Part shown: positions 28,676 to 55,389 of the stretch, piece by piece | Position numbering within the stretch: the first letter of the stretch is position 1 | How the letters are laid out: each line of letters opens with the position of its first letter | Assembly: GCF_014207965.1 (NCBI RefSeq) | Contig: NZ_JACHLM010000001.1 | Coordinates: 682,001 to 746,000 of the forward strand | Source: Brevundimonas bullata | GTDB taxonomy: Bacteria; Pseudomonadota; Alphaproteobacteria; Caulobacterales; Caulobacteraceae | Reading direction: 5' to 3' | DNA: 64,000 nucleotides | The notes under the pieces: model-generated | Seen by the model: the letters and a program-made list of their open reading frames with translations, nothing else | What the model was told of the DNA's origin: nothing | Databases searched by the model: none | Position numbers and translations under genes: made by a program

Positions 28676-28691
28676 TGTTTCATGTGAAACA
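28676..28691. promoter_or_regulatory. parS-like site upstream of an XRE gene
   Basis: TGTTTCATGTGAAACA differs by one base from the parS consensus TGTTTCACGTGAAACA. It lies 37 bases upstream of the type B XRE gene start and about 17 kb from the origin gap. It is probably a ParB-binding site; a role in XRE promoter control is also possible. Confidence 0.6.
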
Positions 28692-41465: not shown

Positions 41466-41756
41466 ATGATGCTGAAGGTCATCGCCGAGGACTTCATCAA
41501 GCCCGGGCATGTCGAAACCGTCATGCCGCTCTATCGCGAGTTGGTGGGCCTGACGCGGCAAGAGCCCCTGTGCGTCGCCTATGATCTGTTTGCGGATCAG
41601 CGCCAGCCCGGCCACTTCATCTTCATCGAGGAATAGCCCGATCAGGCGGCGCTGGGCGCCCACTGCGCCAGCGAGCATTTCCGCCGTCTGGCGCCGCAGA
41701 TCGACGCCCATCAGGACAAGCCCGGGACCTACATCCTGATGAACGCCGTGGTTTAG
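41466..41756 (+). pseudogene. Putative quinol monooxygenase (ABM/YgiN family) with in-frame stop
   Basis: The frame opens MMLKVIAEDFIKPGHVETV and reads a complete antibiotic-biosynthesis-monooxygenase domain of 96 codons, but codon 57 (41634-41636) is TAG. The flanking residues are FIFIEE, then PDQAALGAHCASEHF, where the family normally has Trp (EEWxDxxALxxH), so a single TGG to TAG change explains the break. The sense codons on both sides remain well conserved, indicating recent inactivation or a sequencing error. A ribosome-like GGAAAG precedes the ATG. Its end overlaps the convergent dnaQ stop by four bases. Confidence 0.8.
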
Positions 41757-42487
41757 GCCGCCGCCTCGTCCTTGGCTTCGACCTCGACGGTCACGCCGTA
41801 ACCCGCCCACAGGCTGTAGTCTTTCAGCGTGGATTTCAGGAAGGCCAGATGCGCCGCCTGTTCGGCCTCGGTCGAGCGCAACGGCAGGGGGTTGGGCCGC
41901 GCCCCATGGCTGACCGAGGCCGCCGCCGCCACGGCCTGCGGGCTGCGGGTCGTGGTCAGGTCCAGCGCCCGTTCCTTGCCGCCGCGCAGCTCCAGATAGA
42001 CCTCGGCCAGCAGGCGGGAGTCGATCAGGGCGCCGTGCAGGGTGCGGTCCACCAGAGAGATCTTGAAGCGCTTGCACAGGGCGTCCAGCGAGTTCGGCAT
42101 CCCCGGAAACCGCTTCTGCGCCAGCTGCAGGGTGTCAATCCACCGCTCCTGCGGCGGCGGCTTCTGGCCGATGCGGCTGTATTCGAAGTCGATGAAGTTG
42201 CGGTCGAAGTTGGCGTTGTGCGCGATCAGAGGCGCATCGCCGACGAACTCCAGGAGGTCGGCGGCGATCTCGTGGAACTTCGGCGCATTCTTGACGTGCT
42301 CGTCGGTAATGCCGTGGACCCGGATCGCATCCGGCGGGATCAGCCGCTCGGGATTGACCAGACGGTGAAAGGTCCGTCCCGTCGGCAGCAGGTCATGGAT
42401 CTCGATGCAGCCGACCTCGATCAGACGGTCGCCCGTCTTGGGATCGAAGCCAGTGGTTTCGGTGTCGAGAACGATTTCGCGGGCCAT
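41753..42487 (-). CDS. dnaQ: DNA polymerase III epsilon subunit (3'-5' proofreading exonuclease)
   Basis: About 244 residues. Exonuclease motifs ExoI IVLDTETTGFDP, ExoII HNANFDRNFIDFE and ExoIII HGALIDSRLLAEVY carry the four acidic residues and the His. The C-terminal tail binds the alpha subunit. The ATG at 42487 gives the family start. It is the last gene of the ppsR-maf-aroE-coaE-dnaQ run leaving the origin leftward. Confidence 0.96.
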   Translation of the reverse strand: MAREIVLDTETTGFDPKTGDRLIEVGCIEIHDLLPTGRTFHRLVNPERLIPPDAIRVHGITDEHVKNAPKFHEIAADLLEFVGDAPLIAHNANFDRNFIDFEYSRIGQKPPPQERWIDTLQLAQKRFPGMPNSLDALCKRFKISLVDRTLHGALIDSRLLAEVYLELRGGKERALDLTTTRSPQAVAAAASVSHGARPNPLPLRSTEAEQAAHLAFLKSTLKDYSLWAGYGVTVEVEAKDEAAA

Positions 42488-42529
42488 GCCCCTTAATGAG
42501 GCAAGCCGCATCGCAACGGAAGGGCGGCC

Positions 42530-43144
42530 TCAGCCTCGGCGCGGAGGCGTCCACGCGGGATCAAGAACTGTCCCCACGATTTGGGCCACCTGTTCACGAG
42601 CCGCGTCCAGCCCGCGCCCAGTGTCGACCAGGAAGTCGGCGCGACGGCGTTTCTCGGCGTCGGGCGTCTGCCGGGTCAGGATGGCCTCGAAGCGCTCGCG
42701 GGTCATGCCGGGGCGGGCCAGGACGCGCGCCGCCTGGATCTCGGGATCGGCGGTGACCACGACCACGGCGTCCACGAAGGCGTCGCCCCCGGTTTCGAAC
42801 AGCAGGGGAATGTCCAGCACGGCCAGCCGCACCCCCTCAGCCCGCGCCGCCGCCAGATCCTGAGCTCGGTCCTGGGCCACCAGAGGATGGACGATAGCTT
42901 CCAGGCGTTTGAAGGCGGTCTCGTCGCGACCGAGCGACTCGGTCAGACGGGTGCGGTCCACGGCGCCGTCGACGACCACGCCAGGGAAGGCCTGACCCAG
43001 GGGTTCGACCGCCGCCCCGCCCCGCGCATAGAGGCGATGCACCGCGGCGTCGGCGTCCCAGACCAGGGCGCCTTCGTCGGCGAACATCCGTCCCGTAGTG
43101 GACTTGCCCATGCCAATCGAGCCGGTCAGGCCGAGGATGATCAC
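42530..43144 (-). CDS. coaE: Dephospho-CoA kinase
   Basis: A 204-residue P-loop kinase for the last step of coenzyme A synthesis. It starts [20 protein letters not shown] (Walker A), with [20 protein letters not shown] and [17 protein letters not shown] further on. The GTG start shares GTGA with the aroE stop. Confidence 0.96.
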
Positions 43145-43986
43145 GCGGCTTCTCCCAGATGGGCCAGCAGCAGGGCGCGCAGGTCCATCGGCGGCGGCGG
43201 ACGGCGGTACAGGGCGGTGAACGAGGGCGCCGCCTGTCCGATCAGCATGGCCAGACCGTCCACCGTGGTCAGACCACGCGCACGGGCAGCGGCGAGGAAG
43301 GGGGTGACGACGGGCTTGTAGGTCATGTCCATGACCACGGCGTTCGGTTTCAGCACCGACAGGTCGATGCTCGGCTGAACGCTCAGCGCATTGATGACCA
43401 GATCGGCTTCAGCCAGGGCGGTCTCGTCGGCGACGCTGACCGCGGGTCCCAGATCGGCGGCCAGGGCCTCGGCCCGATCACGCGAACGGTTGAGGATGCG
43501 GATTTGCGCCCCCGCCTCGATCAGGGCGCCCGCGCCAGCGCGCGCGGCGCCCCCGGCGCCCAGCATGACCACGACGGCGCCTTTCAGATTCAATGCCGGC
43601 GCCTGTTCGGCCAGGGCGTAAAGGACGCCGACGCCGTCGGAGCTGTCGGCCAGGACGCGGCCGTTGTCGAAGACGAGGATGTTGGCGGAGCCGGTCGCCT
43701 GAGCGGCTTGGCTGGCCTCGTCGGCCAAGGCGAAAGCCTGTTCCTTGAACGGGGCGGTGACGTTCAGGCCCTGAACCAGACCGGCCCGTCCGGCGGTGAC
43801 CAGAGCATCGAAGCCGGCCGCATCGTTCGGCGCGAACGGCATATAGGCGCCGTCGATGTCGCCGGCTTCGAGCCAGGCGTTATGGATCACGGGGCTGAGC
43901 GAATGGGTCACCGGCTGGCCGGCGATGCCCGCCAGCATGGCGGCGCCGGTGATGCGGTTCTTACCGAGGGCAGGGGAGGGGCTCAC
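43141..43986 (-). CDS. aroE: Shikimate dehydrogenase
   Basis: About 281 residues; it reduces 3-dehydroshikimate with NADPH in aromatic amino acid synthesis. The substrate site [20 protein letters not shown], the catalytic Lys in [12 protein letters not shown] and the nucleotide-binding [20 protein letters not shown] are present. The GTG start at 43986 overlaps the maf stop (GTGA) and gives a short N-terminal leader; an in-frame Met fifteen codons later ([10 protein letters not shown]) is an alternative. Confidence 0.94.
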
Positions 43987-44579
43987 GAGCCGATCACTCC
44001 GGCGCGGCGCAGCTCGGCCAGAATCGGCCACAGCGGCAGGCCCAGAACGGTGAAGTAGTCGCCCTCGACGGCCTCGAACAGCTGAGAGCCCAGGCCCTCC
44101 AGCCGGTAGGAGCCGACGCAGGCCAGCAGGGCCGCGCCCTCCGCCGCCAGATAGGCGTCGAGGAAGGCGTCCGAGAAGTCGCGCATCTTCATCTCGACCG
44201 TGTCCACGCCGGACCAGACCACCTGGCCGTTGCGGGCGAGGGCGGCGCCCGAATGCAACTGGTGCGAACGCCCGCGCATAGCGATCAGGCGTTCGCGCGC
44301 CGCCTCCAGCGTCGGGGCCTTGGAGACCAGGCCGCCGTCGAAGGCCAGGGTCTGGTCGGCGCCCAGGACCCAGGCGTCGGCGTCATGGCGCGACACGGCC
44401 AGGGCCTTGGCGCGGGCCAGCTCGACCGCCAGTGCGGCCGGATCGACGCCCGGCGCCTTCAACGCGTCCTCGTCCACGTCGGCGACCTGAACCGTGAACG
44501 GCACGCCCGCCTCGGTCAGGATGGCGCGTCGCGCCGCGCTCTTGGAGGCCAGGATCAGCCGTTCGCCGTCGTTTTTCAC
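43983..44579 (-). CDS. maf: Maf-like nucleoside triphosphate pyrophosphatase
   Basis: A 198-residue Maf protein with LILASKSAARRAILTEAGVP at the start and WVLGADQTLAFDGGLVSKAP. Maf enzymes hydrolyse nucleoside triphosphates, including modified ones, and have been linked to division-septum control. The GTG start overlaps the ppsR stop (GTGA). Confidence 0.94.
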   Translation of the reverse strand: MKNDGERLILASKSAARRAILTEAGVPFTVQVADVDEDALKAPGVDPAALAVELARAKALAVSRHDADAWVLGADQTLAFDGGLVSKAPTLEAARERLIAMRGRSHQLHSGAALARNGQVVWSGVDTVEMKMRDFSDAFLDAYLAAEGAALLACVGSYRLEGLGSQLFEAVEGDYFTVLGLPLWPILAELRRAGVIGS

Positions 44580-45439
44580 CAGGCAGTCCCCACACGGCGA
44601 GTGCGCCGCTCGCTCAGAAGGTTGATGATGGCCGCGGCGGTCTCCTCGACCGAGCGGCGGGTCACGTCGATGGTCGGCCAGCCGCGCCGTTCAAAGGCGC
44701 GCCGCGCCTTGACGGTTTCTTCCCGCACCGCGTCATGATCGACATAGTCAGAGGCATGGTGGGCGTTCAGCCCCTCCAGCCGGTTGCGACGGATCTGCAC
44801 CAGCCGGTCGGGCGAGACCGTCAGACCGACGACCAGGGGGTTCTTCAACTGGGTCAGCCGCTCGCCGTCTTCCTGGCCTGGCACCAGGGGGACGTTGGCG
44901 GCGCGAATGCCGCGGTTGGCCAGATAGATGCAGGTCGGGGTCTTGGAGGTCCGGCTGACACCGCACAGGACCACGTCAGCATGCTCCAGCTGCTCCAGCG
45001 TCCCCTGGCCGTCGTCGTGGGCGATGGCGAAGTCCAGGGCGCCGATACGGTTGAAATAGCCGTGGTCCAGAGCGTGCTGGGCCCCCACGCGGGTCGAGAT
45101 ATTGGTCCCCAGATAGCCCGAAAGGGCGCCGACCAGCGGATCCAGCGCCCCGATCTGCGGCGTCTGCAGACGACGACAGCCTTCCTCCAGCTGTTCGCGC
45201 AGTTCGCGGTCGACCAGGGTGTGCAGCACCACGCCCGGCGCCCCGGCGACCTCCTCCAGCACCCGCTCCATCTGCCTGGGCGAGCGGACCAGGGCGTAGA
45301 TGTGTTCGATCGGAATGACGCCGTCGAAACGGGCGATCACGGCCTTGGCCATGGCGTTCAGGGTCTCGCCGGTCGAGTCCGAGACCAGGTGGACATGGAA
45401 ATAGGTGGCGAGGCGCGACGAGGGGCGGGCGGGGCTCAT
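44576..45439 (-). CDS. ppsR: Pyruvate, phosphate dikinase regulatory kinase/phosphotransferase (DUF299)
   Basis: About 287 residues of the PPDK/PEP-synthase regulatory family, which phosphorylates and dephosphorylates its target Thr. N-terminal YFHVHLVSDSTGETLNAMAK and the P-loop CGVSRTSKTPTCIYLANRG are clear. It is the first leftward gene from the origin, as recalled for Caulobacter. The ATG at 45439 follows AGGAGA; an upstream in-frame ATG at 45529 would extend it 30 residues into the origin gap and is less likely. Confidence 0.93.
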   Translation of the reverse strand: MSPARPSSRLATYFHVHLVSDSTGETLNAMAKAVIARFDGVIPIEHIYALVRSPRQMERVLEEVAGAPGVVLHTLVDRELREQLEEGCRRLQTPQIGALDPLVGALSGYLGTNISTRVGAQHALDHGYFNRIGALDFAIAHDDGQGTLEQLEHADVVLCGVSRTSKTPTCIYLANRGIRAANVPLVPGQEDGERLTQLKNPLVVGLTVSPDRLVQIRRNRLEGLNAHHASDYVDHDAVREETVKARRAFERRGWPTIDVTRRSVEETAAAIINLLSERRTRRVGTAW

Positions 45440-45949
45440 GGCTCTGATCGTCTCCTCATCCTGTCGCGCCCGGATAGCGTCGGACTCTTTCCCCGAAGCC
45501 TGTGCAAAAGCCGGGGCGCCGTTTGACATCGGCTGGGCGCCGACTGGGCGCCGAATCCTCTAGCAAGCTCTCGCCCCGGTCGCGAGCGGGGATCACGGGC
45601 GCCGATTGCCGAACGGCGCCTGGAGTCGTTCATACAGGCGCCGAATTTTTATCCTCACCAGGGGATAAGGCGCCTTATCCAAATTTGGCGCCCGGCGCCT
45701 TTCCCACAACGGCGCCCAGATCGGACTCCTGTCACACCGGGCCTGAAGCGGGTTATCCCCGTTATGAACACCCCATCCAGCCGGCCCCAGGATTCGTTCT
45801 CTCAAAAACGGGGAGAAACCTGTCGATCGACGGGAGTTTCCAATTCTGTCCCCGCTGTCCAGCGCCCTGCTTCCATCCTCCAATTCTTTCAAATTCTTAT
45901 TCTTGAATAGGGATTGAGGCTTGGGGGTGTGCATCCTAAAGCCGAGAGC
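45440..45949. other. Chromosomal replication origin region
   Basis: This 510-bp gap lies between the divergent ppsR and hemE genes, the position of Cori in Caulobacter. It contains DnaA-box-like sequences: TTATCCTCA at 45649, TTATCCCC (reverse) at 45661-45668, TTATCCAAA at 45675 and TTATCCCCG at 45753. Five GANTC sites (45483, 45553, 45623, 45724, 45791) are potential CcrM methylation sites. Nine GGCGCC hexamers lie between 45536 and 45716. An AT-rich run (45881-45909, about 79 percent AT) next to hemE is a candidate unwinding element. There is no TTAA, hence no consensus CtrA site TTAA-N7-TTAA. Assignment as the origin rests mainly on synteny. Confidence 0.88.
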
Positions 45950-46984
45950 ATGAGCACTCCTCTTCTGATCCAGGCTCTCCAGGGCCAGACCACGACACGT
46001 CCGCCCGTATGGTTCATGCGTCAGGCGGGGCGCTACCTGCCCGAGTACCGTGAACTGCGGGCCAAGGCGCCGGACTTCATCGCCTTCTGCATGAACCCGG
46101 AGATGGCGGCCGAGGCGACGCTTCAGCCGATGCGCCGGTTCGGCTTCGATGCCGCCATCGTCTTCGCTGACATCCTGCTGATCCCGGGGGCCCTGGGACA
46201 AAAGGTGTGGTTTGAAGCCGGCGAAGGTCCGCGCCTAGGCGCCCTGCCGTCTGTGGAGTCGATGCGGGAGCTGGCATCCGGAGCTGGGGAAGCCCTGAAG
46301 TCGGTGGGCCAGACCCTGAGCCTGGTGCGCGCTGAACTGGATCCGTCCAAGGCTCTGATCGGGTTCGCCGGCGCGCCCTGGACTGTAGCCACCTATATGC
46401 TGGACGGCGAAGCCCGCACCATCATGAAGGGGGAGCGCGCCGCCGCTCGGACCTACGCCTATGCCGAACCCGAAAAGGTCGCGGCCCTGCTGGAGGTTCT
46501 GGTCGAGGCCACCGCCCACTATCTGAAGATGCAGCAGGACGCCGGCGCCCAGGTGCTGAAGATCTTCGAGAGCTGGGCCGAGGGTCTGCCTGACGATCTC
46601 TTCGAGACTCTGGTCCTGAAGCCTCACCAGGCGCTTGTGGCGCGTGCGCGGGCCCTGGGGGTCACCGTGCCGATCATCGGCTTCCCAAGAGGCTCTGCGG
46701 CGCTTGCGGAGCGTTATGCCGCCGAGTGCGACGTTCAGGCCGTGGCGCTTGACACCGCCTGTCCTCTGGAGGTCGGCAAGCGCGTTCAGGCCCTCAAGCC
46801 GATCCAGGGTGCTCTAGATCCGCTGCTGCTGCGCGCGGGCGGTCCGATGCTGGATCGTCGCGTCGATCAGTTGATGGAGGCCTGGGGGCAGGGGCCGTGG
46901 ATCTTCAACCTGGGCCACGGCATTCTGCCGGACGTGCCGATCGCGCACGTGGAGCAAGTCCTGCGTCGGATCGGCGCCCAATGA
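45950..46984 (+). CDS. hemE: Uroporphyrinogen decarboxylase
   Basis: A 344-residue HemE that decarboxylates uroporphyrinogen III to coproporphyrinogen III. Family motifs are PVWFMRQAGRYLPEYRELR, then FADILLIPGALGQKVWFEAG, GFAGAPWTVATYML and WIFNLGHGILPDV. The ATG at 45950 gives MSTPLLIQALQG; an upstream TTG is rejected. In Caulobacter hemE adjoins the origin and its promoters overlap Cori. hemH starts within the hemE stop. Confidence 0.97.
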   Translation: MSTPLLIQALQGQTTTRPPVWFMRQAGRYLPEYRELRAKAPDFIAFCMNPEMAAEATLQPMRRFGFDAAIVFADILLIPGALGQKVWFEAGEGPRLGALPSVESMRELASGAGEALKSVGQTLSLVRAELDPSKALIGFAGAPWTVATYMLDGEARTIMKGERAAARTYAYAEPEKVAALLEVLVEATAHYLKMQQDAGAQVLKIFESWAEGLPDDLFETLVLKPHQALVARARALGVTVPIIGFPRGSAALAERYAAECDVQAVALDTACPLEVGKRVQALKPIQGALDPLLLRAGGPMLDRRVDQLMEAWGQGPWIFNLGHGILPDVPIAHVEQVLRRIGAQ

Positions 46985-48045
46985 CCCAGACCGCCGAGAC
47001 CAAGCGAGCGGGCCGGCGCGTGGCGGTCGTGCTGACCAATCTCGGCGGGCCGGACGGGCCGGACGCGGTCAAGCCCTTCCTGTTCAACCTGTTCAACGAC
47101 CCGGCCATCATCGGTCTGCCGGGCATTGTGCGCACGCCTCTGGCGCGGTTGATCTCGTCGCGCCGCGAGAAGTCGGCCCAGGCCAACTACGCCCGGATGG
47201 GCGGCGGCTCGCCTCTGCTGCCCGAAACGCTGAAACAGGCGGCGGCCCTGTCGGAGGCTCTAGCCGACGCGGCGCCGGGCGACGAGACCGAGGTCTTCAT
47301 CGCCATGCGCTATTGGCACCCCTTCACCGAGGACACGGCCAAGGCGGTGGCGGAGTTCCAGCCGGATCACGTGGTGCTGCTGCCGCTCTATCCGCAGTTC
47401 TCGACCACCACGACCGCCTCGTCGCTGAAGGCCTGGCGCGAGGCCTACAAGGGGCCGGGCGAGGTCCACGCCGTCTGCTGCTATCCCGACGCCGAAGGTC
47501 TGATCGAAGCCCAGGCCCGACTGATCCGCGAGACCATGGATCGTGCCGAGGGCCAGCCGGTGCGCGTGCTGTTTTCGGCCCATGGCATTCCGGAAAAACT
47601 GGTCGCCGCCGGCGATCCCTATCAGGCCCAGGTCGAGGCCACCGTGGCCGCCGTCGTCGCCCGCATGGGGCTGACCGACTGGGCGATCTGCTATCAGAGC
47701 CGGGTCGGGCCGCTGAAATGGCTAGGGCCGTCGACGCCCGAGGCGGTCGAGCAGGCGGGCCGGGACGGGGTGGGCGCCGTGGTCGTGCCCATCGCCTTCG
47801 TGTCCGAGCACATCGAGACCCTGGTCGAACTGGACCACGAGTATGGCGAACTGGCCGAACAGGTCGGTTGCGCCCCCTATCTGCGCGCGCCAGCCTTGGG
47901 CGTAGAGCCGGCCTTCATCGCCGCTCTGGCCCAGGCCGTCGAGGCCGCGCTGGAAACGCCGGGCGTGGCGCCGCAGGGGGCGTCCAAGGGGGGACCATGC
48001 GCCCGCTTGAAAGCCTGTCCTGCAGGGTGTTCAAAGGCGGCCTGA
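46981..48045 (+). CDS. hemH: Ferrochelatase with candidate [2Fe-2S] cysteines
   Basis: A 354-residue ferrochelatase that inserts Fe2+ into protoporphyrin IX. N-terminal VVLTNLGGPDGPDAVKPFLF, the catalytic His in VLFSAHGIPEK and the acidic helix EHIETLVELDHEYGE are present. The C-terminus carries CARLKACPAGC, and another Cys is in WAICYQSRVG; Caulobacter ferrochelatase is known to hold a [2Fe-2S] cluster with C-terminal Cys ligands, so one is likely here. The ATG overlaps the hemE stop (ATGA). Confidence 0.96.
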   Translation: MTQTAETKRAGRRVAVVLTNLGGPDGPDAVKPFLFNLFNDPAIIGLPGIVRTPLARLISSRREKSAQANYARMGGGSPLLPETLKQAAALSEALADAAPGDETEVFIAMRYWHPFTEDTAKAVAEFQPDHVVLLPLYPQFSTTTTASSLKAWREAYKGPGEVHAVCCYPDAEGLIEAQARLIRETMDRAEGQPVRVLFSAHGIPEKLVAAGDPYQAQVEATVAAVVARMGLTDWAICYQSRVGPLKWLGPSTPEAVEQAGRDGVGAVVVPIAFVSEHIETLVELDHEYGELAEQVGCAPYLRAPALGVEPAFIAALAQAVEAALETPGVAPQGASKGGPCARLKACPAGCSKAA

Positions 48046-48063
48046 CCGGCCGAGGGGAGCCTC

Positions 48064-48531
48064 ATGGACTATTACAACCTGGCCCGCGGGCTCCACATCC
48101 TGGCGGTGATCGCCTGGATGGCCGGCATGCTCTTTTTGCCGCGCCTGTTCGCCTATGACGCCGAGCAAAACGCCAAGCCCGAGCCCTTGCGCGGCGAAAT
48201 GCAGGCCCTGCTGCGCCTGTGGCAGACTCGCCTGCTGCGGATCATCATCAATCCGGCCATGATCCTGGCCTTCGTCTTCGGCGGATGGCTGCTGTGGCTG
48301 CGCAGCGGCGACGGCGCCGACTGGAGCTTCGCGCATCAACCGTGGATGGTCACCAAGCTGGTCGGGGTCTTCCTGCTGGCGGGCTGGCACGGCTTCCTGG
48401 CCGGTCAACGGAAGAAGATCGCCGCCGGGACGTCGAAATACTCGGGCCGCTTCTGGCGCATGACCAATGAGATCCCCTTTATCCTGGCCATCGTCATGGT
48501 GCTGTCCGTCACGCTGGAGTGGGCATTTTAG
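48064..48531 (+). CDS. hemJ: Protoporphyrinogen IX oxidase HemJ
   Basis: A 155-residue membrane protein with four transmembrane segments. The conserved His and Trp in ARGLHILAVIAWMAGMLFLP and the Lys of PWMVTKLVGVFLLAGWHGFL match HemJ (formerly UPF0093). It oxidises protoporphyrinogen IX to protoporphyrin IX, the substrate of the preceding ferrochelatase, so hemE-hemH-hemJ complete the end of heme synthesis. An 18-base gap from hemH supports one operon. Confidence 0.94.
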   Translation: MDYYNLARGLHILAVIAWMAGMLFLPRLFAYDAEQNAKPEPLRGEMQALLRLWQTRLLRIIINPAMILAFVFGGWLLWLRSGDGADWSFAHQPWMVTKLVGVFLLAGWHGFLAGQRKKIAAGTSKYSGRFWRMTNEIPFILAIVMVLSVTLEWAF

Positions 48532-48632
48532 GGGGCTATCGCTCGCGACGCGGTCGCTTGCTGTCTGAGCGCGCGAAGCGCCAGGCCGCGTCGGGTCGAA
48601 GAGGCGGAGCCTTTTGATCGCGGTCAAAAAGA
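48532..48632. repeat. Palindromic repeat after hemJ (inverted copy of the 28.7-kb repeat)
   Basis: It begins GGGGCTATCGCTCGCGACGC with a unit ending TTGCTGTCTGAGCGC, then contains the complement of the GGCCTGGCGCTTCGCGCGC, CGACCCGACGCG and AAGGCTCCGCC series found at 28705-28830, shortened internally. It could end hemJ transcription. The rest of the gap to rho (48633-48842) is rho leader sequence in which I see nothing else. Confidence 0.7.
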
Positions 48633-48842: not shown

Positions 48843-50327
48843 ATGACCGACACGCCTGAAAACAACGACCAGTCCACCGAAGCCGTTGAAGTTGTTGCCG
48901 AACGTCCGCGCAAAACGCTGACGCTGGGCGGCGCCAAGGCGCCGGTCGAGGCGCCTGCGGAGCCCGAAGTCGAGGCCGAGGAAACTCAGATCGTCAACGA
49001 CGACACCGGCGTCGACACCACGGCCGACGATGAGGACGACGACGGCGAACCGATGGTGCCCAACGGTCGCATCACCCTGCAGGAACTGAACGAGAAGACG
49101 CCGGAAGACCTGGTCGCCTTCGCTGAAAGCCTGGAGATCGAGAACGCCGGCAACCTGCGCAAACAGGACCTGCTGTTCGCCATCCTGAAGACCCTGGCCG
49201 ACGAAGAAGTCGAGATCATCGCCTCGGGCGTGCTGGAGATCCTGCCCGACGGCTTCGGCTTCCTGCGCAGCCCCGACGCCAACTACCTGCCGGGTCCGGA
49301 CGACGTCTATGTCTCGCCGTCGCAGATTCGCCGCTTCGGCCTGCGCTCGGGCGACACGGTGCATGGCGCCGTGCGCGGTCCGCGGGAAGGCGAACGCTAC
49401 TTCGCCCTGCTCAAGGTGGATACGATCAACTTCGAAGATCCGGAGATGGTCAAGACCAAGGTCCTGTTCGACAACCTGACGCCGCTCTATCCCGAAGAGC
49501 GCCTGCACATGGAAATCCAGGACCCGACGCTGAAGGACCGCTCGGGCCGGATCATCGACATCGTCGCCCCGCTCGGCAAGGGCCAGCGCTGCCTGATCGT
49601 CGCCCCGCCGCGCGTGGGTAAGACGGTGATGTTGCAGAACATCGCCAAGTCGATCGAGCGCAACCACCCGGAAGTCTTCCTGATCGTCCTGCTGATCGAC
49701 GAACGGCCCGAAGAAGTCACCGACATGCAGCGCACGGTGAAGGGCGAGGTCGTGGCCTCGACCTTCGACGAACCGGCCACCCGCCACGTCGCCGTCGCCG
49801 AAATGGTCATCGAAAAGGCCAAGCGTCTGGTCGAGCACAAGAAGGATGTGGTGATCCTGCTGGACTCCATCACCCGCCTGGGCCGCGCCTATAACGCCAC
49901 CGTCCCGTCGTCGGGCAAGGTGCTGACCGGCGGCGTCGACGCCAACGCCTTGCAACGGCCCAAGCGCTTCTTCGGCGCCGCGCGCAACGTGGAGCAGGGC
50001 GGTTCGCTGACCATCATCGCCACGGCCCTGATCGACACCGGCAGCCGCATGGACGAGGTCATCTTCGAAGAGTTCAAGGGCACGGGTAACTCGGAAATCG
50101 TTCTGGACCGCAAGGTCGCCGACAAGCGCATCTTCCCGGCCATCGACGTGCTCAAGTCCGGCACCCGCAAGGAAGACCTCATCACGCCGAAGGATCAGCT
50201 GGCCAAGACCTATGTCCTGCGCCGCATCCTCAACCCGATGGGGCCGCAGGACGCGATCGAGTTCCTGCTCGACAAGATGCGCCAGTCCAAGAACAACGGC
50301 GACTTCTTCCAGTCCATGAACACATAA
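48843..50327 (+). CDS. rho: Transcription termination factor Rho
   Basis: A 494-residue Rho, longer than E. coli Rho because of an acidic low-complexity extension of about 75 residues (including DDEDDDGEP). The RNA-binding domain follows ([40 protein letters not shown]), then the RecA-type motor with Walker [13 protein letters not shown] (near residue 255) and Walker [18 protein letters not shown] 210-base leader may allow autoregulation. The position next to mnmE and the hem genes matches Caulobacter. Confidence 0.98.
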
Positions 50328-50372: not shown

Positions 50373-50374
50373 AT

Positions 50375-50388
50375 GTTTCACGTGAAAC
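50375..50388. promoter_or_regulatory. parS site between rho and DUF6489 gene
   Basis: GTTTCACGTGAAAC, the perfect 14-base parS palindrome, in the short gap between rho and the DUF6489 gene. ParB binding is the expected role, about 4.5 kb from the origin gap. Confidence 0.85.
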
Positions 50389-50414
50389 GAAGTCCGGCCT
50401 GAAAGGCAGACGAC

Positions 50415-50654
50415 ATGAAGCTGAACATTGAAATCGACTGCACCCCGGCCGAGGCCCGCGCCTTCCTGGGCCTGCCCGACGTGACCGTGCTCAACGACCA
50501 TCTGGTCGCCGAGATGCAGAAGCGGATGGACGCCAACATGGCGTCCCTGCAGCCCGATGAATTGATGAAGACCTGGACGTCTTTCGGCGCCCAGGCCCAG
50601 GATCAGTTCCGTCGCCTGATGGAAGCCGCCGTCACGGGCGCCCCCAAGGGCTGA
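50415..50654 (+). CDS. DUF6489 family small protein
   Basis: A 79-residue protein starting MKLNIEIDCTPAEARAFLGL and continuing with a helical segment (NDHLVAEMQKRMDANMASL) and FGAQAQDQFRRLMEAA. It belongs to a small alphaproteobacterial family of unknown function found beside mnmE. The stop lies four bases before the mnmE start. Confidence 0.85.
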   Translation: MKLNIEIDCTPAEARAFLGLPDVTVLNDHLVAEMQKRMDANMASLQPDELMKTWTSFGAQAQDQFRRLMEAAVTGAPKG

Positions 50655-50658
50655 CGAT

Positions 50659-51981
50659 TTGACCACCAACGCCGACACCATCTTCGCCCTGGCCACCCCG
50701 CCGGGACGAGGCGCCATAGCCATCATCCGCCTGTCCGGGCCGGGCGTGGACGCGACCCTGACCGCTTTGGGGGCCGGGGGCCTGACCGCGCGTCTGGCGA
50801 GCTTGCGCACCCTGCGCCATGACGGTGAGACGGTCGATCAAGCCCTGGTCCTGCGCTTCCCCGGCCCCAACTCCTATACCGGCGAGGACTCCGCCGAGTT
50901 GCATCTGCATGGCGGCCAGGCCGTGCTCGAGGCCGCCAGCCGCGCGCTGATCGCGCTCGATGTGCGCCCCGCTGAACCGGGCGAGTTCACCCGTCGCGCC
51001 TTCCAGAACGGCCGCATGGACCTGGCGCAGGCCGAGGCCGTCGCTGACCTGATCGACGCCGAGACGACCGCCCAGAAAGCTCAGGCCCTGGGTCAGCTGG
51101 ACGGCGCCCTCAGCGCCGCCTATGCGGGTTTCCGTCGCGACCTGTTGAAGGCCCTGTCTCTGGTCGAGGCCGAGATCGATTTCCCCGACGAGGAAGTCCC
51201 CGACAATCTGGCCCGCACCGCCGGTCCGGTTCTGGACCAGCTGGCCGCCGATCTGCGCGCGGCTCTGGCCGATTCCGACCGGGGGCGGCGGGTGCGCGAG
51301 GGCTACCGCATCGTCCTGATCGGCGAGACCAACGCCGGGAAGTCGTCGCTGTTCAACGCCCTGACGGCGCGTGAGGCGGCGATCGTGACGCCCATCGCCG
51401 GCACCACCCGCGACGTTCTCGACGCCGAACTGATGATCGGCGGCTATGCCGTCACCCTGTCCGACACCGCCGGTCTGCGCGACAGCGAGGACGTGGTCGA
51501 GGCCGAGGGCATCCGCCGTGCGCGGCTTCGAGCGCAAGACGCGGACCTGCGCCTCTGGGTCCGCGCGCCAGATCAAGGGCAGGGGGATGACCCCGCCGCG
51601 GCCTTCGCCCAGACTGAGGATCTGCAGATCCTGAACAAGGCCGATCTCGGCGCCGCTACGCCGGTTGACGGGCTTGAGGCCCTGTCCGTCAGCACGACGA
51701 GCGGGGAGGGCTTGTCCGATCTCCATGGCTGGATCGCCACCCGTCTGGCGCGCGACCTGTCGGGCGCCGATTTCCCGGCGGTGACGCGCGAGCGCCATCG
51801 TCGTCGCCTGGTCGAAGCCCTTGCCGCGGTGGAGGCAGGGCGTCGCGCTCTGGACTTGGCGCCAGAGATGGCGGGCGACGACCTGCGCCGGGCGGCTGAC
51901 GCCCTGGCGCGTGTCACCGGCGCCATCGGCGTCGAGGACATTCTCGGCGAGGTCTTTTCGACCTTCTGCATCGGCAAGTAG
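50659..51981 (+). CDS. mnmE: tRNA modification GTPase MnmE
   Basis: A 440-residue GTPase that with MnmG forms cmnm5U34 in tRNAs. An N-terminal formyl-THF binding domain (TIFALATPPGRGAIAIIRLS, PGEFTRRAFQNGRMDLAQAE) precedes the G domain (LIGETNAGKSSLFNAL, then TTRDVLDA and DTAGLRD), and the C-terminal catalytic CIGK is present. The start is a TTG preceded by AAGGG; no nearby ATG fits the family. Confidence 0.97.
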   Translation: MTTNADTIFALATPPGRGAIAIIRLSGPGVDATLTALGAGGLTARLASLRTLRHDGETVDQALVLRFPGPNSYTGEDSAELHLHGGQAVLEAASRALIALDVRPAEPGEFTRRAFQNGRMDLAQAEAVADLIDAETTAQKAQALGQLDGALSAAYAGFRRDLLKALSLVEAEIDFPDEEVPDNLARTAGPVLDQLAADLRAALADSDRGRRVREGYRIVLIGETNAGKSSLFNALTAREAAIVTPIAGTTRDVLDAELMIGGYAVTLSDTAGLRDSEDVVEAEGIRRARLRAQDADLRLWVRAPDQGQGDDPAAAFAQTEDLQILNKADLGAATPVDGLEALSVSTTSGEGLSDLHGWIATRLARDLSGADFPAVTRERHRRRLVEALAAVEAGRRALDLAPEMAGDDLRRAADALARVTGAIGVEDILGEVFSTFCIGK

Positions 51982-51995
51982 CCACAGAACTTCGG

Positions 51996-52011
51996 TGTTT
52001 CACGTGAAACA
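51996..52011. promoter_or_regulatory. parS site between mnmE and mnmG
   Basis: TGTTTCACGTGAAACA, a perfect 16-base match to the parS consensus, lies 15 bases after mnmE. It is the strongest ParB site in the window. Confidence 0.92.
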
Positions 52012-52062
52012 ACGGCGTCGTGGCTGTGGCGATGTCGGGCCGGATAGACTATGTGCTCGGCC

Positions 52063-53958
52063 ATGACTTCCTCCCCCTCCACGACCTTCGACGTCATCGT
52101 CATCGGCGGCGGTCACGCCGGCTGCGAAGCGGCGGCCGCCTCGGCGCGCGCCGGCGCCCGCACCCTGCTGCTGACCCAGAAGCTGGAAACCGTGGGCGAG
52201 ATGAGCTGCAACCCGGCTATCGGCGGCCTGGGCAAAGGCCATCTGGTGCGGGAGATCGACGCCCTGGACGGCGTGATGGGGCGCCTGGCCGACGTCTCGG
52301 GCATCCAGTTCCGCCTGCTGAACCGCTCCAAGGGCGCCGCCGTGCGCGGACCGCGCAGCCAGATCGACCGTCGCCTGTACCGTGAGGCCATGCAGGCCGA
52401 ACTGGCCCAGACGCCGAACCTGACCCTGATGGCCGGGACCGCCGAGGCCCTGATCCTGAACGGCGACCGCGTGGTCGGCGTCACGACGGGCGAGGGGACT
52501 GAACTGCGCGCCGGAGCCGTGGTCCTGACGACCGGCACCTTCCTTAACGGGGTCATCCATCGCGGCGAGGAGCGTATCGCTGCCGGCCGCTTTGGCGAGG
52601 CGCCGTCTGTCGGCCTGGCCGCCGACCTCTATGGCGCCGGCCTGATGATGGGCCGTCTAAAGACCGGCACGCCCGCGCGCCTGGACGGCCGCACCATCGC
52701 CTGGGATCGGCTGGAGATGCAGGCGGCCGATGACCAGCCTGTGCCGTTCAGCTTCCTGACCGACAAGATTGAAGTGCCGCAGATCGCATGCGGCATCACG
52801 CATACGACCGAAGAAACCCACCGCATCATCGCCGAGAACCTGGGCGAGAGCGCCGTCTATGGCGGCAAGCTGTCGGGTCGCGGCCCGCGTTACTGCCCCT
52901 CGATCGAGGACAAGGTGGTCCGCTTCGCTGACAAGACCAGCCATCAGGTCTTCCTGGAACCCGAAGGTCTCGACGACCCGACTGTTTATCCCAACGGCAT
53001 TTCGACCTCGGTGTCCGACGCCACGCAGATGGCCTTCCTGCGAACCATGCCGGGCCTTGAGGCCGTCGAGGTCTTCCGTTTCGGCTACGCGATCGAATAC
53101 GACTATGTTGATCCGCGTGAACTGACCCCGGCGCTGGAGGTCAAGAAGCGCCCTGGCCTCTATCTGGCAGGGCAGATCAACGGCACGACGGGCTATGAGG
53201 AAGCGGGGGCCCAGGGCCTGATCGCCGGGCTCAACGCCGCCCGGACCGCGGCTGGCTCCGACCCGATCATTCTCGGCCGCGACCAGGCCTATATCGGCGT
53301 CATGATAGACGATCTGGTGACACGCGGCGTCACCGAGCCCTATCGCATGTTCACGAGCCGGGCCGAGTACCGCCTGACCCTGCGCGCCGACAATGCCGAC
53401 GTGCGCCTGACGGCCATCGGCATCGAGGCGGGCATCGTCGGCAGTGACCGCGCCAAGGTATGGCTCGAGAAGGCCGGCCAGCTGGAGCGGGCGAACCGCG
53501 TTTCACGTGAAACGCAGTTCACGCCCAAGGAGGCTGGGGTCCTAGGCATCACGGTCAATGCTGACGGTCAGCGCCGTTCGATCCGCGACCTGCTGTCCTT
53601 CCCGGACGTGACGCTGGACCACTTCGTTTCCATCCATCCGGAAGTCGCCGACTGGTCGCCCGCCGTGCGCGAGCAGGTCGAGATCGACGCCGTCTATGCC
53701 GGTTATCTGGATCGTCAGGCGTCCGAGGCCGAGGCCCTGCGTCGGGAGGAGGGCCTGTCCCTGCCCGAAGGTCTCGACTACGCCCTCATTGGCGGGCTGT
53801 CGAACGAGGTCCGTGAGAAGCTGACCATGGTCCAGCCCCGCACCCTCGGGCAGGCGGGCCGGATCGAAGGTATGACCCCGGGGGCGCTCACCGCGCTGCT
53901 GGCCCATGTGAAGAAGGCGACGTCGCTCGCCGCAGAAGTCGAGACCATCGTCGCGTGA
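52063..53958 (+). CDS. mnmG: tRNA uridine modification enzyme MnmG (GidA)
   Basis: About 631 residues, the FAD-dependent partner of Mnm[21 protein letters not shown] (dinucleotide fold), [25 protein letters not shown]-type motif [11 protein letters not shown] and the C-terminal [20 protein letters not shown] block are family features. The ATG at 52063 is used; another ATG four codons upstream (52051) is possible. A parS site lies inside the gene. rsmG starts within the stop codon. Confidence 0.97.
53500..53513. promoter_or_regulatory. parS site inside mnmG
   Basis: GTTTCACGTGAAAC, a perfect parS core flanked by C and G, lies within mnmG codons reading RVSRETQF. Confidence 0.85.
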
Positions 53959-54578
53959 CCCTGGACCCCATCGCCGTCTTCCGCACCCACACCGGGGCCA
54001 GCGACACCCAGATCAAGGATCTGACGACCTTCCTCAGCATGTTGACCGAGGCCAATGAGGTGATGAACCTCGTTGGCCCCGACTCCATTCCCGATTTCTG
54101 GAACCGTCATGCCTGGGACAGCGCCCAACTGTTGGCCTTGGCGCCCGAGGCCCTGACCTGGGCCGATCTGGGCGCCGGCGCCGGCTTCCCCGGCGTGGTT
54201 TTGGCCATCTTGCTGAAGGACCGTCCTGACGCCCATGTCTGGCTGATCGACAGCCTGGGCAAACGCTGTCGGTTCCTCGATCAGGTGGTCGAAGCCCTGG
54301 ATCTGCCGGCCACGGTCGTCAACGGTCGGGCCGAGGAGCAGGACGTCGAAGTCGACATCGTCACCGCCCGCGCCGTGGCGCCGATGGAGAAACTGCTGGC
54401 TTATGCACAACCTTACTTCCAGCACGGTGCACAAGGCCTGTTCCTGAAGGGCGAGAAGGCCGAAGCTGAGTTGAAAGAGGCGGCCAAGGTCTGGCATTTT
54501 AACAGCGACCTCTCCGTCTCGCGCAGCGACCCGCGCGGCCGTATCGTCCACATCCGGAGTCTTCGCCGTGTCCGCTGA
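53955..54578 (+). CDS. rsmG: 16S rRNA (guanine527-N7)-methyltransferase RsmG (GidB)
   Basis: A 207-residue Rossmann-fold methyltransferase with the SAM site [38 protein letters not shown] and a conserved catalytic-region [12 protein letters not shown]. It methylates G527 of 16S rRNA. The GTG start overlaps the mnmG stop (GTGA), and parA starts inside its last codons. Confidence 0.96.
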
Positions 54579-55389
54579 TCGCGAAAAACAGACTCGAGTT
54601 CTGGCTGTGTCCAACCAGAAGGGCGGAGTGGGCAAGACCACGACCGCCATCAACCTCGGCACGGCGCTGGCCGCCATTGGCGAGAAGGTGCTGATCGTCG
54701 ACATGGACCCGCAGGGCAATGCCTCGACGGGTCTGGGTGTTCCACGTGAAACACGCCGAGCAACGATCTATGACGTCATCGTCGATGGCCGCCCGATCGA
54801 CCAGTCGGCGGTCGAAACCGCTGTCCCGGGCCTCTTTATCGTGCCGGCCGACGCCGACATGTCGGGCGTCGAGATCGAACTGAGCCAGGCGGATCGCCGC
54901 TCCTATCGTCTGCGTGACGCCCTGGCGGCGCAGGGCGGCAATGGTCATACGCGGTATGACTATGTCCTGATCGACTGCCCGCCGTCGCTGAACCTGCTGA
55001 CGCTGAACGCCATGGCGGCCGCCGACGCGGTCCTGGTGCCCTTGCAGTGCGAGTTCTTTGCGCTGGAGGGCCTGACCCAACTGATGCGGACCATCGACAT
55101 GGTCAAGCAGAGCCTCAATCCAGCGCTGGAGATTCAGGGCCTGGTCCTGACCATGTACGACCGCCGAAACGCCCTGTCGGGGCAGGTGGCGGCCGATGTG
55201 CGCAGTCACTTCGGCGACAAGGTCTATGACAGCGTCATTCCCCGCAATGTGCGGGTTTCGGAGGCGCCGTCCTTCGGCAAGCCGGTGTTGATCTATGATC
55301 TGAAATGCACCGGCAGCCAGGCCTATCTGAAGCTGGCGCGCGAGCTTGTGGCGCGTGAACGCCAGCGCCGTCAGGCGCTCGCCGCCTGA
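54568..55389 (+). CDS. parA: Chromosome-partitioning ATPase ParA
   Basis: A 273-residue ParA/Soj ATPase with the deviant Walker A VSNQKGGVGKTTTAINLG, VDMDPQGNAST and Walker B-like YVLIDCPPSLNLLTLNA. It forms the nucleoid gradient that pulls the ParB-parS complex to the new pole; in Caulobacter it is essential. The GTG start lies 11 bases inside the end of rsmG. A near-perfect parS lies within its 5' third. Confidence 0.97.
   Translation: MSADREKQTRVLAVSNQKGGVGKTTTAINLGTALAAIGEKVLIVDMDPQGNASTGLGVPRETRRATIYDVIVDGRPIDQSAVETAVPGLFIVPADADMSGVEIELSQADRRSYRLRDALAAQGGNGHTRYDYVLIDCPPSLNLLTLNAMAAADAVLVPLQCEFFALEGLTQLMRTIDMVKQSLNPALEIQGLVLTMYDRRNALSGQVAADVRSHFGDKVYDSVIPRNVRVSEAPSFGKPVLIYDLKCTGSQAYLKLARELVARERQRRQALAA
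54738..54753. promoter_or_regulatory. parS-like site inside parA
   Basis: TGTTCCACGTGAAACA differs by one base from the parS consensus. It lies in parA codons reading GVPRETR. ParB binding here is expected. Confidence 0.8.

Follow-up and report, generated by a model that had tools for sequence, protein, structure and literature searches.

Binding of CtrA to the chromosomal origin is the textbook link of cell fate to replication in Caulobacter. The intergenic gap between ppsR and hemE in Brevundimonas bullata raises the question of whether it, too, is an origin of replication, as an earlier note on this DNA proposed, and, if so, what governs its firing. The gap lies in the stretch of 64,000 nucleotides analysed here, hereafter the window (G000:C1:682001-746000, contig NZ_JACHLM010000001.1), which belongs to an assembly of 3.69 Mb in 15 contigs. 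In brief, we are very confident that one lineage of Brevundimonas, including this organism, has lost the CtrA boxes of its origin and carries a constrained array of GGCGCC palindromes there.

Results

The ppsR-hemE gap as the chromosomal origin

The gap is 510 bp long and is flanked divergently by ppsR (minus strand) and hemE (plus strand) (Table 1). NCBIfam identifies dnaQ, coaE, aroE, a maf-like gene and ppsR on the leftward, minus-strand side, and hemE, rho, mnmE, rsmG and the gene of a ParA-type ATPase on the rightward, plus-strand side; the remaining genes of both flanking groups are known as open frames only. A divergent ppsR-hemE gap of 441-574 bp is found in 86 of the 90 hemE upstream regions fetched from relatives, those without it being L024 (incomplete), L098, L107 and L109 (without ppsR). 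Because the gap lengths of these relatives differ by non-multiples of three, two open frames of 134 and 202 amino acids in or overlapping the gap were regarded as chance and rejected as genes. An Rfam search of the 40-50 kb portion of the window returned no match.

Plain GC skew of the 64-kb window was uninformative, and raw 15-kb samples of the contig were noisy. We therefore asked where the sense-strand third-position GC skew of 535 long coding frames switches its relation to gene strand; in the organism's own genome, this test covered 670 kb of the 920-kb contig C1. At the gap (727.7 kb), the statistic reaches 7.39, and a scan on a 5-kb grid gives its best value, 7.35, at 710 kb. In 500 permutations, scanned at every third point of the grid, the observed maximum was never attained. 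The same statistic was computed for G154, a complete genome (a single 3.0-Mb contig) from the clade described below, using 34 samples of 20 kb spaced 88 kb apart. At both hemE (1.113 Mb) and the maximum of the scan (1.08 Mb), it stands at 7.69, and the 95% point of the permutations is 2.99. For raw GC skew, the cumulative curve of G154 has its minimum at the 0.98-Mb sample and is nearly as low at 1.07 Mb; thus, raw skew alone puts the turn slightly to one side of hemE.

Partitioning sites accompany the gap. At up to three mismatches, the window contains six parS-like matches against 0.02 expected; at up to two, the whole genome has eight, all on contig C1. In all 11 genomes examined, one or more parS-like sites (up to two mismatches) are found within 10 kb of hemE; with the pattern reversed as a control, 10 of these genomes yielded no site. 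Besides the four sites to the right of the gap (Table 1), the window has parS-like sites at 28676 (28676-28691) and 41110. Outlying sites occur up to 160 kb from the origin, namely that at 28676-28691 of the window and those at G000:C1:800027 and G000:C1:887607.

The gene dnaA lies outside the window, at G000:C1:542953-544371, 185 kb from the origin. A move of the origin to dnaA was considered and rejected: the skew statistic there (543.7 kb) is 2.73, as opposed to 7.39 at the gap, and the switch of G154 is at hemE. The distance between dnaA and hemE is about 137-530 kb in 10 of 10 genomes (this one and nine congeners of one or two contigs). In Caulobacter, dnaA is close to the origin, within a few kb.

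With the skew switch on the gap, parS nearby and the flanking genes in agreement, it is virtually certain that the gap at 45440-45949 is the chromosomal replication origin. It is orthologous to Caulobacter Cori, sharing the position between ppsR and hemE, flanked by the dnaQ operon and, on the opposite side, by the hem-rho-par genes, as well as the strand-composition switch at the locus and the proximity of parS. An origin at hemE-ppsR is expected and already known. The placement made in the earlier note is upheld, as is its statement that genes are directed away from the gap on both sides, which their order and direction by NCBIfam confirm. That note had named a skew switch elsewhere as one result that would speak against an origin here; the test was run, and the switch falls on the gap. 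Its description of the neighbourhood as Caulobacter-like holds for the order of the flanking genes but not for dnaA, whose distance in the 10 genomes renders the likeness incomplete, nor for the CtrA boxes, which are absent.

Table 1. Features of the origin region in window coordinates; negative numbers are distances from hemE
Feature	Position	Strand	Basis or remark
Chromosomal replication origin, intergenic gap ppsR-hemE	45440..45949		strand-skew switch, nearby parS, divergent gap
dnaQ	41753..42511	-	NCBIfam
ppsR / PDRP	44576..45439	-	NCBIfam NF003742
hemE	45950..46984	+	NCBIfam
rho	48843..50327	+	NCBIfam
ParA-type ATPase	54568..55389	+	NCBIfam
Four parS-like sites	50374, 51996, 53499, 54738 (50374..54753)		pattern match
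GGCGCC 1	45515..45520		-435; aligns to the clade site at about -424, shifted by 11-bp insertion
GGCGCC 2	45536..45541		-414; extra unit in 11-bp insertion, common only to L003, L279, L280
GGCGCC 3	45547..45552		-403; kept in 19/19
GGCGCC 4	45598..45603		-352; kept in 19/19; without aligned counterpart in nine other congeners
GGCGCC 5	45615..45620		about -335; kept in 18/19, missing in L008; near counterparts in 2/9 congeners (L006, L055)
GGCGCC 6	45637..45642		-313; kept in 19/19; without aligned counterpart in nine other congeners
GGCGCC 7	45669..45674		-281; own sub-branch L002, L003, L004, L279, L280
GGCGCC 8	45687..45692		-263; kept in 19/19
GGCGCC 9	45694..45699		-256; own sub-branch L002, L003, L004, L279, L280
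GGCGCC 10	45711..45716		-239; kept in 19/19
TTATCC, DnaA-box-like	45649..45654	+	not conserved across clade
TTATCC, DnaA-box-like	45663..45668	-	not conserved across clade
TTATCC, DnaA-box-like (TTATCCAAA)	45675..45680	+	beside GGCGCC 8
TTATCC, DnaA-box-like (TTATCCCC)	45753..45758	+	same place in 9/11 clade rows
Five GANTC (CcrM-type) sites	starts 45483, 45553, 45623, 45724, 45791 (45483..45795)		motif count
Place of second CtrA box (TTAA-N7-TTAA) in aligned congeners; absent here	45735..45749		alignment, PWM
AT-rich candidate DNA unwinding element	45882..45910		79% AT, lowest duplex stability nearby

Sequence elements within the gap

The earlier note also listed an AT-rich run, TTATCC elements and GANTC sites, and all of these are present. 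The 29-base run adjoining hemE (45882-45910, 79% AT) is the most AT-rich 29-mer of the gap, and its AT content is reached by 2 of the 63,972 29-mers of the window. The least stable 60 bp within 43001-48560 begin at 45882, beside hemE; this stability is equalled or undercut by 63 of the 66930 60-mers of contig sequence scored.

The four TTATCC elements compare with 0.09 expected per 510 bp from the window total of 11. There is no full TTATNCACA in the gap. Of the four, the element at 45753 alone keeps its position in most clade members (9 of 11 rows), the two remaining rows having the variant TTTTCC. The place of the element at 45675 is occupied by TATCC or TGTCC in all 11 aligned clade rows.

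The clustering of GANTC is likewise borne out, with five sites in the gap against about 0.5 expected (window rate, 61 sites in 64 kb); the densest GANTC group of the window comprises six sites in the 510 bp from 45375. Clade gaps average 5.95 of these sites versus 2.41 in other congeners. A consensus for the IHF site, an element of the CtrA-gated Caulobacter-type origin, had no match in the gap or in the whole 64-kb window. A G-box-like core, TGATCC, occurs on the minus strand at 45590-45595, just before GGCGCC 4, and its GGGGAT context recurs in 9 of the 11 aligned clade rows.

One clade lacks CtrA boxes at the origin

We compared 62 gaps from the genus, then 56 from other genomes of the genus, as well as 24 gaps representing 14 further genera of the family. 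The last were obtained from 27 fetched out of 75 matches, selected to span 16 of the 20 genera with matches; G012, with a partial hemE match, was left out. A CtrA box was defined as TTAA-N7-TTAA with up to one mismatch. The gap of the window contains no TTAA at all and hence no CtrA box. Such boxes are found in none of the 19 gaps of the clade to which the window belongs, but in 97 of 99 congeners outside it, mostly in two copies, and in 24 of 24 gaps from the 14 other genera, three of these gaps being AT-rich and thus likelier to yield chance matches. The clade consists of 19 sampled Brevundimonas, including B. diminuta 3F5N, and is supported at 100/99 in a ppsR tree with 11 members and at 99/99 with 19. 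Its eight additional members came from the 56 later genomes; the 48 others in that set each carry a box, with 0-5 GGCGCC. Among the sequences retrieved was L199 (JAFKFS010000033.1), from a metagenome assembly labelled Bordetella; its hemE is 91% identical to that of the window, and it is probably mislabelled.

A position weight matrix (PWM) built from 92 CtrA boxes of congeners agrees with this distribution. The best scores of 11 clade gaps run from -8.3 to 1.4, the level of shuffled sequences (mean 0.4, 95% point 6.8). The 51 non-clade congeners scored have a median of 24.5, their lowest value being -1.4, and in the other genera the minimum is 10.5. In most of nine aligned congeners, the second CtrA box stands directly upstream of a TTATCC-like element. 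The clade retains that element (45753 in the window), but the box beside it is gone; the pairing of TTAA-N7-TTAA with DnaA boxes that marks the CtrA-gated, Caulobacter-type origin is therefore lacking, as is a dnaA gene within a few kb.

CtrA itself persists. Of 11 clade genomes searched, 10 gave a protein of 88-90% identity, and the one without a match is 66% complete; the non-clade G002 likewise gave no match. Use of the CtrA motif elsewhere, taken as a control, gave a mixed result: all four clade genomes looked at have retained a CtrA-like box ahead of ctrA, whereas near ccrM no box (up to one mismatch) was found in three of three, nor in the Caulobacter-type G093. Given that CtrA is retained while the origin boxes are gone, the loss seems to concern direct control of the origin by CtrA and not the regulator.

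Two gaps elsewhere in the tree, L027 (G035) and L029 (G017), are also box-less at one mismatch and have three and two GGCGCC, respectively. L027 keeps two boxes with two mismatches. These may be separate box losses in progress.

A conserved GGCGCC array

Ten GGCGCC palindromes occupy 202 bp of the gap (45515-45716), the seventh lying within the perfect palindrome GGATAAGGCGCCTTATCC. This is the densest GGCGCC cluster on 670 kb of the contig, with 10 per 200 bp against five in the next. Clade gaps have 6-11 copies (mean 8.53), compared with 0-7 (mean 2.16) in other congeners, and they are not GC-richer (0.611 versus 0.627). Of the 64 palindromic hexamers, GGCGCC alone exceeds 0.9 per clade gap.

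Seven sites are clade-wide, at about -424, -403, -352, -334, -313, -263 and -239 from hemE, the first being displaced by 11-bp insertions in four genomes, including that of the window. Across these seven sites in 11 genomes, 76 of 77 hexamer cores are intact. Identity is 0.991 in the core columns as opposed to 0.685 in the other columns of the span, a value matched by none of 20,000 sets of random windows. Counted by strict columns, 127 of 133 hexamers are intact in 19 genomes; in five of the six remaining cases the hexamer is present but shifted by one column, so that 132 of 133 are kept. Several congeners with CtrA boxes also show sites corresponding to the outer ones (-424, -403 and -263). 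For the middle sites (-352, -334 and -313), averaged conservation is 0.66-0.71 beside the hexamer and 0.46-0.73 beyond, although the two bases before the -352 hexamer are invariant.

The contrasts between clades reflect a single evolutionary event observed repeatedly rather than 19 separate events; conservation within the clade is the stronger evidence for function. Outside the clade, L006 (G002) has seven GGCGCC as well as two CtrA boxes, which demonstrates that the array and the boxes are not mutually exclusive.

A probable GGCGCC methyltransferase

According to the accessible text of PMC7987155, GGCGCC is the m5C target of the solitary methyltransferase CCNA_03741 and of its orthologue in B. 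subvibrioides, Bresu_0174; that of PMC12907096 calls CCNA_03741 solitary and assigns to it the m5C motif that is not YGCCGGCR. All 19 clade genomes encode a homologous C5 methyltransferase, as do 56 of 61, then 100 of 105, congeners (overlapping sets, the 105 being at least 95% complete). The enzyme's presence in 100 of 105 congeners means that it does not explain an array in this clade alone. In the genome studied here, the gene is at G000:C2:110447-111619, with a predicted specificity for GGCGCC. The genome combines this gene with a cluster, at the origin, of what the accessible text of PMC7987155 reports as the target of a solitary methyltransferase, two features of a Dam/SeqA-like origin.

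The methyltransferases fall into two subtypes, 43-49% identical, both present among close relatives in the clade; some congeners possess both together (loci L143, L145 and L181-L198). A C-terminal block, AGCLRTP.GGSSRQ, occurs in 19 of 19 aligned proteins, which come from 11 clade and eight other entries and are not the 19 clade genomes; three of the 22 loci (L180, L195 and L197) were missed by the motif and are absent from the alignment. Since they share this block, the two subtypes likely have the same specificity. The alignment includes a Caulobacter-type methyltransferase about 167 kb from its hemE; this protein, G093:C1:2296563, may be the orthologue of CCNA_03741, an assignment made solely on its distance from the origin.

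A genus-wide tie between the presence of the enzyme and GGCGCC at the origin is weakly supported. Six genomes without the methyltransferase have 1, 0, 0, 0, 2 and 3 origin GGCGCC; the 93 other congeners outside the clade average 2.24 (p = 0.041). However, a single lineage accounts for four of the six (G003, which is B. halotolerans, G015, G028 and G060). Counter-examples exist as well: G107, of the same lineage as G003, possesses the enzyme along with one site; G056 encodes the enzyme twice but has no site; and G172 has three sites and no enzyme.

Discussion

We consider the best overall explanation, which we hold to have about an even chance of being right, to be that direct gating by CtrA was lost from this origin, which came to be densely marked with methylation sites. 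The parts of this explanation differ in strength. The GGCGCC row probably comprises targets of a DNA-methylating enzyme, and we think it fairly likely that these sites are methylated at the origin; that methylation gates initiation is a possibility about which we are more doubtful. In the mechanism that we propose, DnaA would load at the TTATCC elements and melt the AT-rich stretch beside hemE, as their positions suggest. CtrA would no longer block or compete with DnaA at the gap, as every box is lost, including those beside the DnaA-box-like elements. The array would be a dense target of the solitary m5C methyltransferase, and the enriched GANTC sites would be those of CcrM. Passage of the fork would leave the origin hemimethylated; the interval before the next initiation could then be set by delayed remethylation or by its reading. 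The mode of action would be like that of Dam/SeqA at E. coli oriC, with cytosine methylation. We suggest, tentatively, that this branch swapped CtrA gating for m5C gating, with the hemimethylated GGCGCC array delaying re-initiation as a counterpart of Dam/SeqA of independent origin.

The main rival is that the array is the operator of a DNA-binding protein that replaced CtrA as repressor or organiser, methylation being incidental; we regard this reading as credible but far from assured. Consistent with it, the -239 hexamer keeps CCCACA just upstream and CAG just downstream, GGGCGCCGAAT is kept at -403, CG is kept before the -352 hexamer, and the flanks show an oriented tendency (GGCGCC-G-A/T-A/T). 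In several relatives, moreover, GGCGCC abuts the first CtrA box. However, conservation falls off outside the hexamer at the three middle sites, which is short for a repressor operator, and the hexamer coincides with what the accessible text of PMC7987155 gives as the target of a solitary methyltransferase of this family. Another reading is that the array regulates transcription of ppsR (or hemE) and not replication. It does lie in the ppsR-proximal part of the gap, 76-277 bp upstream of the start of that gene, and the GGCGCC copies nearest to ppsR are matched at comparable positions in several congeners that retain CtrA boxes. Yet at least seven copies over about 200 bp, set among DnaA-box-like elements, would seem to be more than an ordinary promoter needs, and the array appears in the very clade that lacks CtrA boxes in the same stretch; we hold this explanation to be unlikely.

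Two further readings concern the loss itself. CtrA might still control the origin through degenerate or displaced sites. The conservation of CtrA speaks for such control, and the two boxes with two mismatches in L027 indicate that decay can be gradual, but the best PWM scores of the 11 clade gaps at shuffle level and the want of any TTAA in the gap of the window make it, in our estimation, quite improbable. As for the notion that the clade's origin moved away and left the gap as a relic, the 185 kb to dnaA and the loss of CtrA boxes could be taken in its favour. Against it stand the skew switch at the gap in both this contig and the complete clade genome, the nearby parS and the fact that dnaA is far from hemE also in congeners that keep their CtrA boxes; we find it barely tenable.

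The E. coli oriC, where about 11 GATC lie in 245 bp and Dam and SeqA mediate sequestration, offers a parallel. Both origins have a clustered, short palindromic methylation target (here 10 GGCGCC in 202 bp) and a solitary methyltransferase. In this sequence-based comparison, the present case differs in its six-base target, in the predicted modification of cytosine-5 instead of adenine-6, in an unrelated enzyme and in having no known reader.

Comparison with Cori is closer. The two share the hemE-ppsR position with divergent flanks (as in Caulobacter-type gaps, g22), DnaA boxes, which in the Brevundimonas gap are putative, an AT-rich stretch near hemE (the Caulobacter side being the L092 sequence) and a nearby parS, which in C. 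crescentus is within 8 kb of the origin (accessible text of PMC4468827). The same text describes five high-affinity CtrA sites at Cori, near or over its two G-boxes, four of them conserved among freshwater Caulobacter. In contrast, the origin of the Brevundimonas clade is without CtrA sites, and dnaA is not near; conversely, four sampled Caulobacter-type (g22) gaps hold only 2-3 GGCGCC. Brucella abortus offers a further comparison: it encodes CtrA, and its origin is not bound by it, according to the accessible text of PMC2877005. The Brevundimonas clade would resemble it in encoding a CtrA that does not act at the origin. Unlike the case in Brucella, the clade's loss is nested in a genus and a family that keep the boxes, and it coincides with the GGCGCC array.

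Among the matches listed in our literature search, no title or beginning of an abstract mentions a Brevundimonas origin without CtrA sites or a GGCGCC array at an origin. The loss of all CtrA boxes within the Caulobacteraceae together with a constrained GGCGCC array was not found among these matches. A nearby clade that keeps CtrA without any box at the origin constitutes a natural experiment on the purpose of the link between cell fate and replication. The array also offers a possible role for the solitary GGCGCC methyltransferase, for which none is named in the accessible text of PMC7987155 and PMC12907096, and it provides an instance in which cytosine methylation at a bacterial origin can be put to the test. 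If our proposal is true, the exchange of CtrA gating for methylation gating would be datable on the species tree.
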